A stretch of 64,000 bases of DNA from Pontibacter roseus DSM 17521. Lineage in GTDB: Bacteria; Bacteroidota; Bacteroidia; Cytophagales; Hymenobacteraceae. The stretch lies in assembly GCF_000373265.1 (NCBI RefSeq), contig NZ_KB890762.1, forward strand, positions 367,705 to 431,704, in the 5' to 3' direction. The position numbers and the translations under genes are program-made. Positions 7,473-36,562 of the stretch are shown here, in pieces. Below the pieces are notes generated by a model, which was not told the DNA's origin, did not search any database, and was given only the letters and a program-made list of their open reading frames with translations. Every line of letters starts with the position of its first letter. Positions within the stretch are counted from its first letter, which is position 1.

Positions 7473-8444
7473 ATGGAATACAGAAGATTTGGCCGCACAG
7501 GCTGGCAAGTAAGCGAGATAGGGTATGGCATGTGGGGGATGGCCGGATGGACGAACTCAGACGACGCTCAGTCGGAACGCTCGTTGGACATCGCCGTGGA
7601 AGGCGGTTGCAATTTCTTCGACACGGCCTGGGGCTATGGCAAGGGAAAGAGCGAGCAAATCCTGGGTCGCCTGATCAAACGCCACCCTAACCAGCGGCTG
7701 TATGTGGCGACCAAGATTCCGCCTAAGAACATGAAGTGGCCCTCCAAGCGGGAGTATAAGTTAGAGGACTGCTTTCCTGCCGACCATATCATTTCCTATA
7801 CCGAGAAGAGCCTGAAAAACCTGGGGCTTGAGACCATTGATTTGCAGCAGTTCCATGTCTGGGAAGATAACTGGGCGGAGCAGGAGGAGTGGCAGCGGGC
7901 CGTGGAGAAGCTGAAAACCGAAGGCAAAATCCAGCACATGGGAGTGAGCGTGAACCGCTGGGAACCAGAAAACGTGTTGAACACGCTGCGTACCGGCCAT
8001 ATCAGCAGCGTGCAGGTCATCTACAACATCTTCGACCAGGCCCCTGAAGATGCGCTTTTCCCGCTGTGCCGCGAACTGGACATTGCGACTATCGCCCGAG
8101 TGCCTTTTGATGAAGGCACGTTAACAGGCACTTTCACCTTAGAGACCACTTTCCCAAAAGAGGACTGGCGCAGCACCTATTTCGTGCCCGAGAACCTGCA
8201 GGCCAGCGTGGCCCATGCCGACCGTCTGAAGCCCCTTATCCCGGAGGGCATGACGATGCCCGAAATGGCGCTGCGGTTCATCCTCAGTAATCCCGATGTG
8301 AGCACCACCATACCAGGCATGCGCAAGCCCCAGCATGTGCAATCCAACCTGGGCACCAGCGATGGCGAAGGGCTGCCGCAGGACTTACTGGTAGAACTGA
8401 AACAGCACCGCTGGGACCGTGAACCTACGGCGTGGTCGCAATAG
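7473..8444 (+). CDS. Aldo/keto reductase
   Basis: A 323-residue (beta/alpha)8 NADPH-dependent oxidoreductase. The start is set at the ATG at 7473 (MEYRRFGRTGWQVSEIGYG), where family homology begins; the upstream in-frame 22 codons are Arg-rich and look like leader. The catalytic tetrad is visible as Asp and Tyr in FFDTAWGYG, Lys in VATKIPP and His in LQQFHVW. It resembles the IolS/YhdN (AKR11-like) group. It may share a transcript with the ygiD-like gene upstream; substrate unknown. Confidence 0.92.
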   Translation: MEYRRFGRTGWQVSEIGYGMWGMAGWTNSDDAQSERSLDIAVEGGCNFFDTAWGYGKGKSEQILGRLIKRHPNQRLYVATKIPPKNMKWPSKREYKLEDCFPADHIISYTEKSLKNLGLETIDLQQFHVWEDNWAEQEEWQRAVEKLKTEGKIQHMGVSVNRWEPENVLNTLRTGHISSVQVIYNIFDQAPEDALFPLCRELDIATIARVPFDEGTLTGTFTLETTFPKEDWRSTYFVPENLQASVAHADRLKPLIPEGMTMPEMALRFILSNPDVSTTIPGMRKPQHVQSNLGTSDGEGLPQDLLVELKQHRWDREPTAWSQ

Positions 8445-28405: not shown

Positions 28406-29458
28406 TTACTCTTCTTGTGATATAATAATTAGCTGAAAAGGGCCATATTTATGCTGTTCTTCACTAAAGCTATCTGTATAAGGACCAAAAGGATAATCAA
28501 ATGGCTTTTTTGAAATATCAGGCCAGTCTTTGCTGATGTCTTTCTTCGGTCGAGGTAGCGAATTCACAAAAGCAGCCACGTCCCAGGCTTCTTCATCTGT
28601 AAGTTGAGGGCTGCCATACGTTGCTCCTAATGGCATATTAGCTTTCACATACTTGGCAAAGTTTGAAATACGGTATAAGCCAGCTCCGTCGTTGTAACTG
28701 TTTTCACCCCAAAGCGGAGGGTAAACATACACGGTACTACCTTCAGGTTTCATGCCTTCGCCCTCTTCGCCGTGGCATACCTGGCATTTCTGTACATATA
28801 TGGCCTTGCCCAATTCCGGACTGGCCGCACGATTCAGCAGCTCTATATCCATCAAGCCAGATCCCTTTACTTTTTCTCCTTTCTTTACATCATTCCCAAC
28901 CCATTGGATATAAGCGACCATTGCCTGCATTTCTTTAGAGTCTTTAGCAGGTGCAGTTCCGTTTAAACTGCGTTCAAAGCAGTCAGCTACACGTTTCGTT
29001 ACATCCTCTTCCACCCCTGACCGCGCCCGAACCTTAGGATAGGTAGATGCAACTAGTGAATAGTTATTTCCAAAAGGTTTAGTGCCTGCATCCAGGTAGC
29101 AGTTCTGACAATTCATTCCGTTTGATATATGTAATACACTTCCTTCAGGGCCGAGGTATTGAGCAGTGTTCTTTACCAATTCATGGCCGTAGCGGATTAA
29201 ATCACCCTCAGGTGTCGCAGGTAGCGATGCCAAATCGGGGGCTTTCCACATCTCATCGTCTGCTGTAGGTTCAGGAACTTTATCCGAAGCACTATTCTGA
29301 AATACCTGGCTCAAGTCCGGTAAGTACGTATGAGCCGGGGTGATTCGGAAGATTACAACTATAAATAACAGTAGTAACGTAGTAAGAGCACTTAAGCCTA
29401 TCAAATTAGATAACTTCACTAATTGGCTTCCAAAATCTTGTCCCTGACTGATTTTCAT
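28406..29458 (-). CDS. TsdA-like c-type cytochrome with one degenerate heme motif
   Basis: A 350-residue protein with one N-terminal transmembrane anchor. Two cytochrome c domains are present, arranged as in thiosulfate dehydrogenase/tetrathionate reductase TsdA: NGMNCQNCYLDAGTKPFGNN and VQKCQVCHGEEGEGM followed by NMPLGATYGSPQLTDEEAWD. The second has CxxCH; the first reads CxxCY because its codon is TAC where CAC would give His. The first heme may be missing or bound differently. It is preceded by a regulon operator (29516-29531), placing it under the sulfur-island control circuit. Confidence 0.85.
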   Translation of the reverse strand: MKISQGQDFGSQLVKLSNLIGLSALTTLLLLFIVVIFRITPAHTYLPDLSQVFQNSASDKVPEPTADDEMWKAPDLASLPATPEGDLIRYGHELVKNTAQYLGPEGSVLHISNGMNCQNCYLDAGTKPFGNNYSLVASTYPKVRARSGVEEDVTKRVADCFERSLNGTAPAKDSKEMQAMVAYIQWVGNDVKKGEKVKGSGLMDIELLNRAASPELGKAIYVQKCQVCHGEEGEGMKPEGSTVYVYPPLWGENSYNDGAGLYRISNFAKYVKANMPLGATYGSPQLTDEEAWDVAAFVNSLPRPKKDISKDWPDISKKPFDYPFGPYTDSFSEEQHKYGPFQLIIISQEE

Positions 29459-29632: not shown

Positions 29633-31285
29633 CTATCTGAAAACATAATCCACGTTTGGCAACTGCGAAAGTACCGGCGACTCCAGGTCCAGCACTTTGG
29701 CTCTTCCGTCTATCTTTGGAGATACTGTACCATTCTTTTTCAGGTATTCTTCCATTACATCGTGAACAGTATAATCCAGCACTTTCGGGTCTTTGGCGTT
29801 CGGCATGCGGCACAGCACATGGTCTGGCTCACCTGTTCTACGGCAGGCAGCCATGGTGTATTCCTTCTTCAGGTCGAGCGGCTTTCCACCAACCGTAATA
29901 GACTGTACTCGTTCACCTTTCGGGGCATTCGCATTGAAGGTCAGTTTCATTCCTGAGAACCGGATTACCCAACCACCAAAGCGCTCCAGCGGCTTTTCTG
30001 CAAATACATTATGCAGTTCCTGTTCCATCCAGTCTTTTATCTGCTGACCAGTAGCTTTGCCTGTTTTCACGTTCTCGTTCACAGGCAGCATGTTCCAGAT
30101 GTCGCTGTAGGTGATAGGCGCCCTGCCTGAGGCATCCGGTACGATTGGAGTACCAAAACGGAAACCATTTGAAATGGCTATGTCAGCGCCCGTCTTTAAG
30201 CGAACCGCATCGGTGATCATGTTATCCAGCGCATTCTCCACCACCAGGTAACGGTATAGAGGCTCCGTAGTATAGCCTAGCACCCTTTCCATTTGCGCTT
30301 TGTAGGGTGCCGTCTGCTCGTCCACTATTTTCTGTACGATAGGGTCAGCCGGATATTTCTTTGGGTCTACATCCATCAGCTCATAGCTCTGGTCTACTAT
30401 TTTACCATTTTTCACCTGCAGGTCCAGGCGACCAACGAAGGAACCGAACCCGCCCGGCTCTACTACCTGCGCATACTTGCGCTTCAGCGGCTTTCTGATT
30501 CTCTCATGGGTATCGTTGCCCAGTACAAAGTCCACGCCTTCAATTTCAGGTTGATCAGCAAGATAGATTTGTTTTGAAATGCCCAGGTGCGTTACCAGGA
30601 ACAGGATGTCTACGCCTTTTTCTTCTTTTAGCTCTTTGATGAGTGGTTGCAAGTTGTCTTCCAGTCCTTTAAAAATAAGCCCTTTGCTGAACACCGGATT
30701 TTGGCGAACAGGCACTTCCGGGTCGTTGTAGGAGATAAATCCCAGCTTAACACCTTTCATTTCTTTGATGATGTACGGCGGGTACAGCATCTCAGAACTG
30801 GCTTCATCATAAATGTTGGCACATACTACAGGCTTGCCATACGAGGCCAGTATACTGCGCATTTTCTGGCTGCCGAAAATCACTTCCCAGTTACCGGGAA
30901 TCAGGAAATCATAATCCATTGCTTTGATGACCGGGGCTATGGCATCTCCTTCCGACATGGCGGCCACGGCGCTTCCCTGTATCAGGTCGCCACCATCCAC
31001 AATCACAGTGCCTTCGGGATTTTCTGCCTTTACCTGTTTGAAGAGGGTTTGGATGTTGGCCATACCGCCACGCTCTTTAAACACAAACTCACCGTTTTCT
31101 ACAAACATCTCCTGGTGGGGCATCAGCTGCCCATGGATGTCTGCTGTCTGTAAGATGGTTATGATTTCGATGCCATCGTTGTTGGCTATGGTTTCACTGT
31201 TTCCTGTTGTTTGGCAACTGCTAAAAGCTGCCAAGCCAATAACAGATAGGGTTGAGAGTATGATTTTATTGAAGTTTAGCTTCAT
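29633..31285 (-). CDS. SoxB-like metallophosphatase lipoprotein (first copy)
   Basis: A 550-residue 5'-nucleotidase-superfamily protein with a lipobox FSSC at about Cys24. Metal motifs are LQTADIHGQL (DxH), VDGGDLIQGS, IPGNWEVIFG, VTHLGISKQ and GNDTHERI, and the C-terminal nucleotidase domain carries ISNGFRFGTPI. Trp replaces the catalytic His of GNHE, as in SoxB thiosulfohydrolases (GHWEF), so a sulfur substrate is more likely than a nucleotide. It is alone on its strand between the TsdA-like gene and a small gene, with no operator in its leader. Confidence 0.85.
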   Translation of the reverse strand: MKLNFNKIILSTLSVIGLAAFSSCQTTGNSETIANNDGIEIITILQTADIHGQLMPHQEMFVENGEFVFKERGGMANIQTLFKQVKAENPEGTVIVDGGDLIQGSAVAAMSEGDAIAPVIKAMDYDFLIPGNWEVIFGSQKMRSILASYGKPVVCANIYDEASSEMLYPPYIIKEMKGVKLGFISYNDPEVPVRQNPVFSKGLIFKGLEDNLQPLIKELKEEKGVDILFLVTHLGISKQIYLADQPEIEGVDFVLGNDTHERIRKPLKRKYAQVVEPGGFGSFVGRLDLQVKNGKIVDQSYELMDVDPKKYPADPIVQKIVDEQTAPYKAQMERVLGYTTEPLYRYLVVENALDNMITDAVRLKTGADIAISNGFRFGTPIVPDASGRAPITYSDIWNMLPVNENVKTGKATGQQIKDWMEQELHNVFAEKPLERFGGWVIRFSGMKLTFNANAPKGERVQSITVGGKPLDLKKEYTMAACRRTGEPDHVLCRMPNAKDPKVLDYTVHDVMEEYLKKNGTVSPKIDGRAKVLDLESPVLSQLPNVDYVFR

Positions 31286-32027: not shown

Positions 32028-32426
32028 ATGCCTATGAACTATGTAGTAAAACTAATTGCTTTCGTGCTGTTTTTTGGATTTAGCAGTTGTCAGCAGGAAA
32101 CAGGTAGTACAAAAGTAAACTTAAATGCAACCGAAGTAAAGCAACTCATTGCATCTGATCAGGATATTATAGTGCTGGATGTGCGGACACCTTATGAATT
32201 TCAGGACGGCCACCTGGAAGGCGCTGTTAATATAGACTATACTTCACCGGATTTTGAACAGAAAATAGCCAAACTGGACACAGCCGCTACCTACCTGCTA
32301 TACTGTAAATCCGGTAACAGAAGTAGCCGTGCTACAGCTGTCATGAAGAGCCATAATTTCAATAACATTTACAACGCAACCGTAGGGTTTGATGCACTCA
32401 AATCAGCAGGGATGCAAACAAAATAA
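32028..32426 (+). CDS. Rhodanese-like lipoprotein
   Basis: A 132-residue single rhodanese domain behind a lipoprotein signal (FSSCQQ; ATG at 32028, alternative at 32034). The core has LDVRTPYEFQDGHLEGAVNI and the active-site loop LLYCKSGNRSSRA with its catalytic Cys. It transfers sulfane sulfur in the periplasm. The stop is three bases before the GTG of a YeiH-type exporter, so the two are probably an operon that handles sulfur and exports the product. Confidence 0.92.
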   Translation: MPMNYVVKLIAFVLFFGFSSCQQETGSTKVNLNATEVKQLIASDQDIIVLDVRTPYEFQDGHLEGAVNIDYTSPDFEQKIAKLDTAATYLLYCKSGNRSSRATAVMKSHNFNNIYNATVGFDALKSAGMQTK

Positions 32427-32429
32427 ACC

Positions 32430-33368
32430 GTGGAGATTTCAAGCAAAAGATATATTCAACTGGGCATTTTTTGGCTGATACTGTTACTGATTGTAATAAC
32501 AGACTTTATTGGTGCGCCGCTCGCTTTATTCTCAGGTATCGTATTAGGCCTGATTTTCGGTAATCCGTATCCGGCAAAGCTGAGCAAATTTACCAAGTAT
32601 TCTTTGCAAGCTTCGGTAGTAGGCTTGGGTTTCGGCATTAACCTGTACCAGGTAGCTGAAACCGGCTTAACAGGCTTCTTCTATACAGCCATCTCCCTTA
32701 TTGCCACCATGGTGGTCGGTTTGCTTTTGGCGAAACTGTTAGGCGTTGAGAAAAAGCTGAATCACCTTATTACTGCCGGTACAGCTATTTGCGGGGGAAG
32801 TGCCATTGCTGCCGTTGCCCCGGCTATAAAAGCATCAGAAAAGGAAATTTCTGTAGCGCTGGGTGTGGTATTCATTTTGAATGCGGTAGCCTTGTTTATT
32901 TTCCCATTTATCGGTAATCAGTTGCAGTTAACGCAGGAACAGTTCGGGGTTTGGGCCGCTATTGCCATACACGATACCAGTTCCGTCGTGGGGGCTGCCA
33001 CGGAGTTTGGTGAAAAAGCTCTCGAAATTGCCACTACGCTTAAACTAACGCGTGCGCTGTGGATACTCCCAATGGTACTGATTACAGGCTTTCTGTTTAA
33101 GTCGGAAGGCAAGGCAAGCTTCCCGAAGTTCATACTTTTCTTCCTGGTAGCATCCCTGTTCAGCACTTTTCTGAGTGGCCTGAGCGAAGTGTATGGCTGG
33201 CTGACCTTGCTGGCCCGAAAAGGCTTGGTTATCAGTTTATTTTTAACTGGTGCAGGCATTAGCATGTCGTTGCTCAGAACCATAAGTATCAGGCCTTTTT
33301 TGCAAGGAGTGGTGCTTTGGTTGGTAGTAGCCACCGGTTCTCTGCTGGCAGTTTATTATGTAGTCTAA
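32430..33368 (+). CDS. YeiH family putative sulfite/sulfate exporter
   Basis: A 312-residue UPF0324 membrane protein of about ten helices, starting with GTG three bases after the rhodanese stop. Characteristic segments are SLQASVVGLGFGINL, ITAGTAICGGSAIAAVAP, AIAIHDTSSVVGAATEFG and LFLTGAGISMSLLR. Homologues are induced by sulfite or cysteine and are thought to export sulfite or sulfate. It forms an operon with the rhodanese. Confidence 0.9.
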   Translation: MEISSKRYIQLGIFWLILLLIVITDFIGAPLALFSGIVLGLIFGNPYPAKLSKFTKYSLQASVVGLGFGINLYQVAETGLTGFFYTAISLIATMVVGLLLAKLLGVEKKLNHLITAGTAICGGSAIAAVAPAIKASEKEISVALGVVFILNAVALFIFPFIGNQLQLTQEQFGVWAAIAIHDTSSVVGAATEFGEKALEIATTLKLTRALWILPMVLITGFLFKSEGKASFPKFILFFLVASLFSTFLSGLSEVYGWLTLLARKGLVISLFLTGAGISMSLLRTISIRPFLQGVVLWLVVATGSLLAVYYVV

Positions 33369-33537
33369 CAGAGCAGGATTGCCTATAAAAGGTATGATGT
33401 AACATATTTAACTCAATGGCTACACGACTAACTAAACTTAGTGGTGTAGCCTTATCTACTTAACTATGTAAAGACAAACGAACTTAACTATTCTTCAACT
33501 CAACGATACCCATGCCTACCTGGAGCCCCACCAGGAA

Positions 33538-34914
33538 ATGTTTTGGGAGAATGGTACAACGAAATACCGTAAAGCAGGCGGCTTTGCTAAAATAGCAGGG
33601 TACTTAAAGCAACTCCGCCATGAGAAGCTGGATGCGGTGCTGGCACTAGATTGCGGCGACACATTTCATGGCACCTTTCCGGCTGTTGCATCGAAAGGTG
33701 AAGTAATGATACCTGTGCTGAACGAACTTGGCCTGGCAGCCATGACGGCACATTGGGAATTTGCCTATGGCCCGGAGCAGTTCAGGAAACTGACTGCCAT
33801 GCTCAATTATCCCATCCTGGCTATCAATGTGTATGATAAAACTACGGATAAGCTGGTGTTTGAGCCTTACACGCTGAAAGAAGTAAATGGCGTTAAAATA
33901 GGTATAGTGGGCATTGCCTGTAACATCGTTGATAAGACCATGCCACCCCATTTCAGTGAAGGCATTTACTTTACACTGGGTAACGAAGAACTTCCCGGCT
34001 ACATTCAAAAGCTAAGGCAGGAAGAAAAGGTTGATTTAATTGTACTGATTTCTCACCTCGGCTTCCCGCAAAACATGAAGCTGCTTTCCGAAGTGGAAGG
34101 TATAGATGTCTGTCTGAGTAGCCACACCCATTACCGAACCTCTAAAGCCATAAAACAAGGGCAGACGATTGTGATGGAGTCTGGTTGCCATGGTTCCTTC
34201 TTGGGGCGGCTGGATCTGATTATTGAGAAAGGCAGAATCTCCAACTATAAACATGAGCTGGTAGTAGTCTCTGATAAATTACCCGACGATGCCCACATGC
34301 AGGAGCTGGTTCAGCAAGCTGTTCAGCCTTACCATAAAGAGCTAAGCCAGACAGTGGGGGAGACGGCTACGGTGCTGGACCGGAACAACATCCTGGAATC
34401 TACCATGGATAATTTCCTGCTGCAAAGTATGCTACACGCAACAGGAGCAGAGCTAGCTTTTTCGAATGGCTGGCGTTACGGAGCGCCTATCGTTCCCGGG
34501 TCTGTTACCCTGAACGACCTTTACAACATCATTCCCATGAATCCGCCTATACAAACGGTGGAACTGACAGGGCAGGAACTGCAATACATGCTGGAAGAGA
34601 ATCTGGAGAAAACGTTTTCGCCGGACCCCTACGCACAGCAAGGTGGCTTTGTAAAACGGTGTATGGGATTAAGGGCCTTTATAAAAATAGAAGCACCCAA
34701 AGGCACCCGTATCCAGAAGCTCTTTGTGAACGACGAAGAACTGGACTTACAGCGAACGTATAAGGCTTCTTTCGTGACGGAGCAGGGCGTGCCTTCAGCG
34801 TATGGTACCAACCGCGCCGATGCAGGTATAAAGGCTATCGAAGCCATGAAGCAATACCTGAATAACCATTCACCAGTCCATGCAGACCTGCTGGGCACGT
34901 TCACGGCTGTATAA
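33538..34914 (+). CDS. SoxB-like metallophosphatase (second copy) with a lesioned 5' end
   Basis: The body has LALDCGDTFHGT, MTAHWEFAYGPEQF (matching SoxB HWE), ISHLGFPQN, LSSHTHYRTS and a C-terminal nucleotidase domain with FSNGWRYGAPI. The first in-frame ATG is 33538. The reading continues upstream without a usual start codon as NLTILQLNDTHAYLEPHQ, which holds the essential DxH at 33505-33513. It ends at an ATG-TAA pair (33466-33471). ATG AAA would restore it, so codon 2 appears to be a nonsense mutation. A product starting at 33538 lacks the first metal motif and should be inactive. No signal peptide is seen. Confidence 0.7.
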   Translation: MFWENGTTKYRKAGGFAKIAGYLKQLRHEKLDAVLALDCGDTFHGTFPAVASKGEVMIPVLNELGLAAMTAHWEFAYGPEQFRKLTAMLNYPILAINVYDKTTDKLVFEPYTLKEVNGVKIGIVGIACNIVDKTMPPHFSEGIYFTLGNEELPGYIQKLRQEEKVDLIVLISHLGFPQNMKLLSEVEGIDVCLSSHTHYRTSKAIKQGQTIVMESGCHGSFLGRLDLIIEKGRISNYKHELVVVSDKLPDDAHMQELVQQAVQPYHKELSQTVGETATVLDRNNILESTMDNFLLQSMLHATGAELAFSNGWRYGAPIVPGSVTLNDLYNIIPMNPPIQTVELTGQELQYMLEENLEKTFSPDPYAQQGGFVKRCMGLRAFIKIEAPKGTRIQKLFVNDEELDLQRTYKASFVTEQGVPSAYGTNRADAGIKAIEAMKQYLNNHSPVHADLLGTFTAV

Positions 34915-34939: not shown

Positions 34940-36562
34940 ATGAGGATAAGTATGCATTTAGGAATACGCTTTATGATGGCGCCACTTATACTTGCCGGCG
35001 CCTGTACAAACTCAAACCCAGCAGCAACGGCTGCAAGTGAAATGACAGGAAAAGAACAGAAATCAATCAGCATTTTGCATACAAATGACATGCATGGAAC
35101 CTACAAGCCTTTCCTGACGACAACTGATAACGCTACTGCTCAAACCGGCGATGCAGGCCGTGACACGCTTATTACGTTCAATAAAGCCGCAAGAATTGGG
35201 GGCTTCGCGTACCTGGCCAGCGCTGTGAAAAAAGTGCGAACAGAGAAAGGTGCAGATAAGGTGTTGCTGGTTGATGGGGGCGATACCTTTAGTGACGACC
35301 AACTTGGCAACCTGACCAAAGGAGAAGCCATGATCCGGTTCATGAATGCGGTGAATTATGACCTGATGGCGCTTGGAAACCATGATTTTGATTATGGGTT
35401 ACAGCGCACACGCGAACTGCAGCAAATGGCAACCTTCCCGATGCGGGCAGCCAACATTACAGATGACAACACGCAGCAACCTGTTTTCGGAGAGCCTTAT
35501 ATTATAAAGGAAAAGAACGGGGTAAAGGTGGCGATTCTGGCACTTGGCTACCGTAATACTCCTAAAACGGGCAATCCAGACAACGTAAAAGGACTTAGCT
35601 TTAAGGTGGGCCAGGAAGTAGCACAAGCCTATGTGCCGGAGCTCCGAAAGAAAGCCGATATAGTGGTCGTGCTTTCGCATGAAGGGACGGCGGTGGATTA
35701 CAAAATGGCCCGCGAAGTAGCAGGTATAGACCTAATCATAGGTGCTCATAGCCACGACATCCTGGAGCCAAGAAAGAAGATAGGGCAGACCTATGTGGTG
35801 CAGGCGATGTCAGATGCGGCAGTATTGGGCGAAACAGAACTGGTAGTCAGGGACCAACAACTGGTTGATGTGAAAACGCATCATCATTGGCTCTGGAACG
35901 AGCAGGTGCAGCCTGATGCAGCCATGCAGGCGCTGATAAACGAGCAGCGGAAACCACACCTGGATAGGCTGCAAGAACATGTGGTGGATAGCAAGGCAAC
36001 TATCGGCCGTCAGTATAAATCTGAAAGTCCATTTGATAAGCTGGTAGGTAATCTTCTGCTCAAAGAATTCAAAGGAGATGTGGCCATCATGCCGGGAGTG
36101 GGTTATGGTATCTCTTTAAAACCAGGCCCTGTGACAAGTGAAGAAGTATACAAGCTGTTGCCACACCCATCTAAGATAGTAACTTTGACCATGACGGGTA
36201 GGCAGTTAACGATGACTCTTGAGCAGGCGGCCAAAAACCTGAAGCCGGCTAACAAACTGGATGCGGTAGGTGGTCTTATCCAGACAGCTGGTATTCGCTA
36301 CCAAATGGACCTTACCAAGCCATTGGGAAAACGAATCAGCAAGGTTCAAATCAAAAATCAGCCTATAAATGATAATCAAGACTATAGGATTGTCACCCAC
36401 AACGGTTTACTAACCGGATTGCACAACTTCGATGAGTTAGGGAAGGGGCAGAACATCAACAGAACAGCGCAACCATTAACTGAATTTATCATTCAGAAGT
36501 TAAAGGAGATGAAGACAATAGACATGCCATCTAATATGGGAGAAGTAACCATCAAACGCTAA
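34940..36562 (+). CDS. 5'-nucleotidase/UshA-like metallophosphatase lipoprotein
   Basis: A 540-residue protein. The start is set at the ATG at 34940, which gives a signal peptide with lipobox LAGAC. It has the canonical set LHTNDMHGTYKP, VDGGDTFSDDQ, ALGNHDFDYG (Asn-His intact), VLSHEGTAVDY and GAHSHDIL, with a C-terminal 5-nucleotidase domain. Unlike its two SoxB-like neighbours it keeps the catalytic His, so nucleotide or sugar-phosphate hydrolysis in the periplasm is likely. It follows the SoxB-like gene by 25 bp, probably as a duplication-derived pair. Confidence 0.9.
   Translation: MRISMHLGIRFMMAPLILAGACTNSNPAATAASEMTGKEQKSISILHTNDMHGTYKPFLTTTDNATAQTGDAGRDTLITFNKAARIGGFAYLASAVKKVRTEKGADKVLLVDGGDTFSDDQLGNLTKGEAMIRFMNAVNYDLMALGNHDFDYGLQRTRELQQMATFPMRAANITDDNTQQPVFGEPYIIKEKNGVKVAILALGYRNTPKTGNPDNVKGLSFKVGQEVAQAYVPELRKKADIVVVLSHEGTAVDYKMAREVAGIDLIIGAHSHDILEPRKKIGQTYVVQAMSDAAVLGETELVVRDQQLVDVKTHHHWLWNEQVQPDAAMQALINEQRKPHLDRLQEHVVDSKATIGRQYKSESPFDKLVGNLLLKEFKGDVAIMPGVGYGISLKPGPVTSEEVYKLLPHPSKIVTLTMTGRQLTMTLEQAAKNLKPANKLDAVGGLIQTAGIRYQMDLTKPLGKRISKVQIKNQPINDNQDYRIVTHNGLLTGLHNFDELGKGQNINRTAQPLTEFIIQKLKEMKTIDMPSNMGEVTIKR

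Follow-up and report, generated by a model that had tools for sequence, protein, structure and literature searches.

The closest described counterpart of the gene cluster analysed here is that of Erythrobacter flavus 21-3, in which three SoxB-domain proteins are encoded together with a TsdA cytochrome and the MBL-fold protein Sdo (PMC7608252); one of the SoxB-domain genes, soxB, is needed for sulfur globules, while the other two could be deleted without effect. At the level of single proteins, known relatives are the thiosulfohydrolase SoxB (TIGR04486; Thermus thermophilus 2wdc and 4uwq) and WP_068840353.1, a bifunctional metallophosphatase/5'-nucleotidase encoded on plasmid Paks1 of Pontibacter akesuensis. 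The literature match for SoxB together with Pontibacter was a survey of stonework. Start-stop elements are eukaryotic in the accessible part of a review that treats them (PMC5972666), and among the papers matched on early nonsense codons and start-stop elements, mostly on eukaryotes, we recognised no bacterial AUG-stop gene, which is no proof of absence.

Here we describe a SoxB-like gene of Pontibacter roseus DSM 17521 whose start codon is followed at once by a stop codon, in a window (the whole stretch of DNA that was analysed) of 64,000 nucleotides. This arrangement is probably a real and very recent nonsense mutation that inactivates the gene and makes it a nascent pseudogene. Like the E. 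flavus 21-3 cluster (PMC7608252), the locus unites a SoxA/TsdA-like cytochrome, three matches to the SoxB model and an MBL-fold protein; unlike that cluster, it belongs to a different phylum, and the likeness is one of gene content.

A SoxB-like gene in a sulfur gene cluster

The product of the frame contains a Metallophos and a 5_nucleotid_C domain, both above their gathering scores, and these two domains place it in the 5'-nucleotidase/metallophosphoesterase superfamily. Its best NCBIfam match was SoxB (TIGR04486), with 361.7 bits against a curated cut-off of 550. Its AlphaFold2 model (mean pLDDT 92.6) also had SoxB as its best match in the PDB library (4uwq_J; TM 0.92 by query length, E 1.4e-45, 24% identity), and the AHWEF segment of the product aligns to SHWEW of SoxB, where a nucleotidase has GNHEF. 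The name SoxB-like, given in the initial annotation, therefore agrees with the fold and with the best family match, but the product differs from SoxB proper in scoring below the cut-off of that family. In the near orthologues (see below) there is no room for an export signal because few codons precede strand 1 of the fold, and the sequence suggests that the gene product is probably a cytosolic SoxB-like metallohydrolase. No match to SoxY or SoxZ (PF13501, PF08770) was found in the genome, and likewise none of the 14 control genomes matched.

The gene is surrounded by sulfur-related genes on both sides (Table 1). Its neighbours bear the same names as in P. akesuensis and follow in the same order, including DsrE, TlpA, DoxX, DUF6691, YeeE, rhodanese, MBL-fold and TauE proteins. 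A second full-length close copy was not found in the genome, where only diverged paralogues (34% and 32% identity) and one relative of the N-terminal half were detected, and an intact second copy elsewhere was therefore rejected as an explanation.

Table 1. Features of the SoxB-like gene and its neighbours (positions in the window).
Feature	Position	Strand	Basis
SoxA/TsdA-like c-type cytochrome	28406-29458	-	Cytochrom_C and SoxA-TsdA_cyt-c above gathering scores
SoxB-like paralogue, upstream, unbroken; lipoprotein-like leader (by eye)	29633-31285	-	Domain and NCBIfam matches
Rhodanese-domain protein	32028-32426	+	Domain match
Putative sulfate exporter (YeiH type, below the model's cut-off), directly upstream	32430-33368	+	Same name in P. 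akesuensis
Orthologous start codon of the SoxB-like gene, ATG	33466-33468	+	Aligned start in 5/5 distinct near orthologues; P. akesuensis annotation
Probable nonsense lesion at codon 2, TAA	33469-33471	+	Near orthologues: GAA (4), GAC (1)
Intact rest of the reading frame, 480 codons and stop	33472-34914 (stop 34912-34914)	+	Translation; 87-89% identity to near orthologues
NDTH motif	33502-33513	+	N11, D12 and H14 invariant in 40/40 aligned sequences
Next in-frame ATG (residue 23)	33538-33540	+	Restart would remove seven invariant residues and the predicted strand 1
SoxB-like paralogue, downstream, unbroken; lipoprotein-like leader (by eye)	34940-36562	+	Domain and NCBIfam matches

The orthologous start codon is followed by a stop codon

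The features from which the initial annotation started, namely an ATG with an immediate TAA, a frame open directly after it and the NDTH motif inside that frame, are all present in the sequence and its translation. No in-frame ATG, GTG or TTG lies between the TAA and NDTH, which leaves ATG 33466 as the sole canonical start ahead of the motif, and no further stop occurs within 33472-34911, so that the gene is otherwise intact as had been stated. The pattern ATG-TAA proves nothing by itself, since 3 of the 27 frames of at least 300 codons in the window have a start codon directly ahead of their bounding stop (ATG, GTG and TTG, one each).

Orthologues were found by a search of the genus (some match in 49 of 50 genomes), of the family at E 1e-120 (matches in 29 of 204 genomes) and of genome_contigs, from which 80 of 419 loci were kept. 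Five distinct orthologues at 87-89% identity all begin at an ATG aligned with 33466 and have a sense codon at position 2, in line with the comparison with close relatives that had been proposed as a check: P. akesuensis (G002/L005; NZ_CP014767.1), Pontibacter sp. 4-1420 (L006/L053), P. litorisediminis (L007/L054), Rufibacter sediminis (L034/L055) and L035, from the same genus group as L034. The AAA codon expected as the normal second codon in the initial annotation is not the one these orthologues use, which is GAA in four and GAC in one; AAA occurs at this place in more distant orthologues (L008/L056, L012/L059 and L013). The P. akesuensis protein WP_068840353.1, at 89.2% identity and with the same local gene order, has its RefSeq start at record position 96680, two codons ahead of 96686, the position of the matched frame; it differs in its sense codon at position 2 and in its location on a plasmid typed as mobilizable. 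Because the near orthologues align their starts there and the P. akesuensis annotation agrees, ATG 33466 is more than a chance triplet and, on the evidence of the aligned sequences, is the orthologous start of the gene. The same two observations led us to reject the idea that the ATG stands there by chance and that the true start of the frame lies elsewhere.

Two other arrangements near the start codon were considered and set aside. Initiation in a different frame within 33472-33501 was rejected, as no ATG, GTG or TTG was seen there by eye in any frame. An open frame of 15 codons at 33416-33463, which ends two bases before the ATG, was considered as a coupling element and dropped; it is present in G044 and absent from G002 and G023. 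The segment just 5' of the start codon also contains a hairpin (33418-33451). Its stem is conserved in G002 and, with a compensatory change, in G044; in G023 it is weak, and in Rufibacter it is not evident. With up to 3 mismatches allowed the hairpin is single-copy in the genome, and it may mark where the exporter transcript ends or be an element of a 5' UTR.

Predicted loss of the N-terminal metal motif

In the proposed mechanism, ATG 33466 would be the native start and a very recent single-base change would have turned codon 2 into TAA, so that ribosomes starting there would terminate at once. As the initial annotation had pointed out, a start at the next ATG (33538) costs the NDTH motif, which precedes residue 23, and no other canonical start would spare the active site. 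In an alignment of 40 sequences, made of the window and 39 sequences chosen from the 80 genome_contigs loci, Q9, N11, D12, H14, Y16, H20 and E22 are invariant in all 40. N11, D12 and H14 correspond in alignment to the ND-H segments of nucleotidases with solved structures, and D and H act as metal ligands in this superfamily. Both are among the seven invariant residues dropped by a restart at 33538, which confirms that the metal motif would go with the N-terminus, and the predicted strand 1 (residues 2-10 of the AlphaFold2 model) would be lost as well. The 458-residue restart product would be no enzyme, as we infer from the missing strand 1, D12 and H14. That such a protein is made from 33538, where the frame is open up to 34914, and has a function independent of the N-terminal metal motif is scarcely credible, given that it would be without strand 1 and without all seven residues from Q9 to E22 that no aligned sequence lacks. 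A gene finder limited to ATG, GTG and TTG calls precisely this 458-residue gene, with its N-terminal metal motif missing.

Constraint on the gene and quality of the assembly

The reading frame still bears the marks of selection. Among the changes unique to each sequence in a comparison of the window, G002, G023, G044 and one Rufibacter (L035 left out), the window had 22 synonymous and 5 replacement changes (N/S 0.23), and the four intact orthologues had N/S values of 0.59, 0.44, 0.29 and 0.32, against 2.4-3.2 expected under neutrality. That more than about 6-15% of the branch evolved neutrally was, depending on assumptions, rejected at the 5% level. Furthermore, at the columns conserved in 95% or more of the 39 other sequences the window never deviates, and seven near relatives do so at 0 to 4 columns. 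The excess of synonymous over replacement changes indicates that constraint held until very recently, and an older, decaying pseudogene was rejected for this reason and for the lack of any further stop in the frame. The initial claim of a recent lesion thus holds, provided that the lesion is real. These data date the lesion without proving it, because a translated gene or a base error would show the same; judged from the sequence, the lesion may be very young, an error, or bypassed, and the constraint data fit all three. Our choice among them rests on plausibility, on the losses in related genomes and on the state of the assembly.

An error of base calling or assembly would leave the gene intact in the living strain, and it is consistent with all codons but one being intact and constrained and with a basis that consists of the assembly alone; an assembly stretch (G000:C2) that matches the gene at 100% comes from the same source and is hence no independent check. 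We nevertheless regard such an error as unlikely, since the assembly is in 12 contigs, is 98.63% complete and is clean around the gene, and since the losses in sister genomes described below make a real lesion plausible. The neighbours were compared using the 22 genes that P. akesuensis has between the cytochrome and the last rhodanese, end genes included, with products of 100 residues or more. One of them, a sterol desaturase, was cut by the edge of the compared stretches and left out; in the window the downstream paralogue and the DsrE gene are 80 bases apart, which leaves no room for it at that place. Besides the SoxB-like gene itself, 20 genes were tested, and all 20 are free of in-frame stops in the window over at least 93% of their length. 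These unbroken neighbours argue against a noisy assembly, although they are still compatible with a single wrong base. A real nonsense mutation, the reading that we prefer, is further backed by the nature of the disabling change, a TAA at a codon that is a sense codon in 5/5 near orthologues.

Initiation at a non-canonical codon as an unlikely alternative

Bacteroidota often have no ribosome-binding sequence, and its absence in front of a codon is therefore weak evidence against initiation there. Ahead of NDTH the frame has two near-cognate codons, ACG 33478 and ATT 33490. Translation from either of them, or reinitiation past ATG-TAA, would yield an active enzyme of nearly full length. With ATT 33490 (residue 7) as its start, the protein would retain all seven invariant residues from Q9 to E22, and the gene shows no sign of relaxed selection. 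The ATT/ACG alternative, raised in the initial annotation, is however left without positive evidence, as no ribosome-binding-like sequence was seen by eye before 33490 or 33478. In addition, 5/5 near orthologues, which use ATG as start, encode Ile (by ATT or ATC) at the place of ATT 33490, and initiation there would remove residues 1-6 and with them about half of the predicted strand 1. In an in-vitro system with an engineered initiator (PMC10158994), very little product formed from weakly paired initiator codons; AUU with anticodon CAU was one of the ten examined. Taken together, we consider a functional non-canonical start very unlikely. More doubtful still is the idea that the frame goes on being translated, through the near-cognate ATT 33490 or by reinitiation, and that the change is a natural down-tuning of the enzyme and not its loss.

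The absence of a canonical start is rare in the family. Among 101 distinct homologues, window included (at least 45% identity, match beginning within the first 20 residues, duplicates merged), only the window and one distant homologue (L120) have no in-frame ATG, GTG or TTG before the motif; the other 99 were counted generously, since for 44 of these the start codon closest to the motif immediately precedes it. L120, from a Halanaerobiales MAG (2540-2600), has AGGAGG seven bases before ATT AAA GAT. This locus is a candidate for a natural ATT start, or else a lost or miscalled start codon, and because of its AGGAGG and its lack of a canonical start an ATT start may exist in the family.

Loss of the gene in related genomes

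Among the 12 genomes of the genus that have the downstream paralogue, an unbroken copy of the SoxB-like gene was found in 8 and none in 4, the window included; cross-matches to the paralogues below 45% identity were hidden in this comparison of loci. One genome (G030) has a frameshift near residue 212 of its copy, within the same gene cluster; another (G038) retains, behind the exporter gene, roughly the final 46 codons, consistent with a deletion; and in a third (G033) no trace of the gene was seen in the interval from the exporter to the downstream paralogue. The assemblies of G030 and G038 are drafts and may contain errors. Rufibacter has unbroken copies too. On a tree of the two paralogues (13 rows, midpoint root), the best tree required four changes and the bootstrap trees three to four; of the four losses, the well-supported branches by themselves require only two, and the exact place of the window is an open fork. 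Label shuffles were uninformative, since 500 of 500 were as low. The best reading of these sequences is that the SoxB-like gene has been repeatedly lost in Pontibacter, and the losses in sister genomes suggest that the protein is dispensable in some species, although in one genome a paralogue is broken as well.

Damaged copies were also observed elsewhere. The downstream SoxB-like paralogue of P. aydingkolensis (L057 7493-9130) is split by an in-frame TAG at 8300-8302, which shows that lesions strike the paralogue too. An in-frame TAA lies in the copy of G088 (L048), and G041 and G004 carry pieces of genes of this family (L154 6550-6714 and L155 7905-8066) that cover the N-terminal part and are about 63-64% identical to the window; G004 holds its fragment beside an unbroken copy.

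Implications

The sulfur cluster of P. akesuensis (L166) neighbours transfer genes on the 116 kb plasmid Paks1, which is typed as mobilizable, and copies of the gene from Rufibacter are about as similar as are copies within Pontibacter. Because of this plasmid location and of the similarity between the two genera, the cluster probably moves between genera. In P. roseus the gene would be a nascent pseudogene in a cluster of the thiosulfate/persulfide type that still holds two unbroken SoxB-like paralogues. The event itself was most likely an ordinary one, a single very recent mutation, and some related species have lost the gene as well. If real, it would be a gene loss caught at its first step, with one nonsense codon as the sole defect of the gene, and the three related genomes without a working copy would have got there by other routes.
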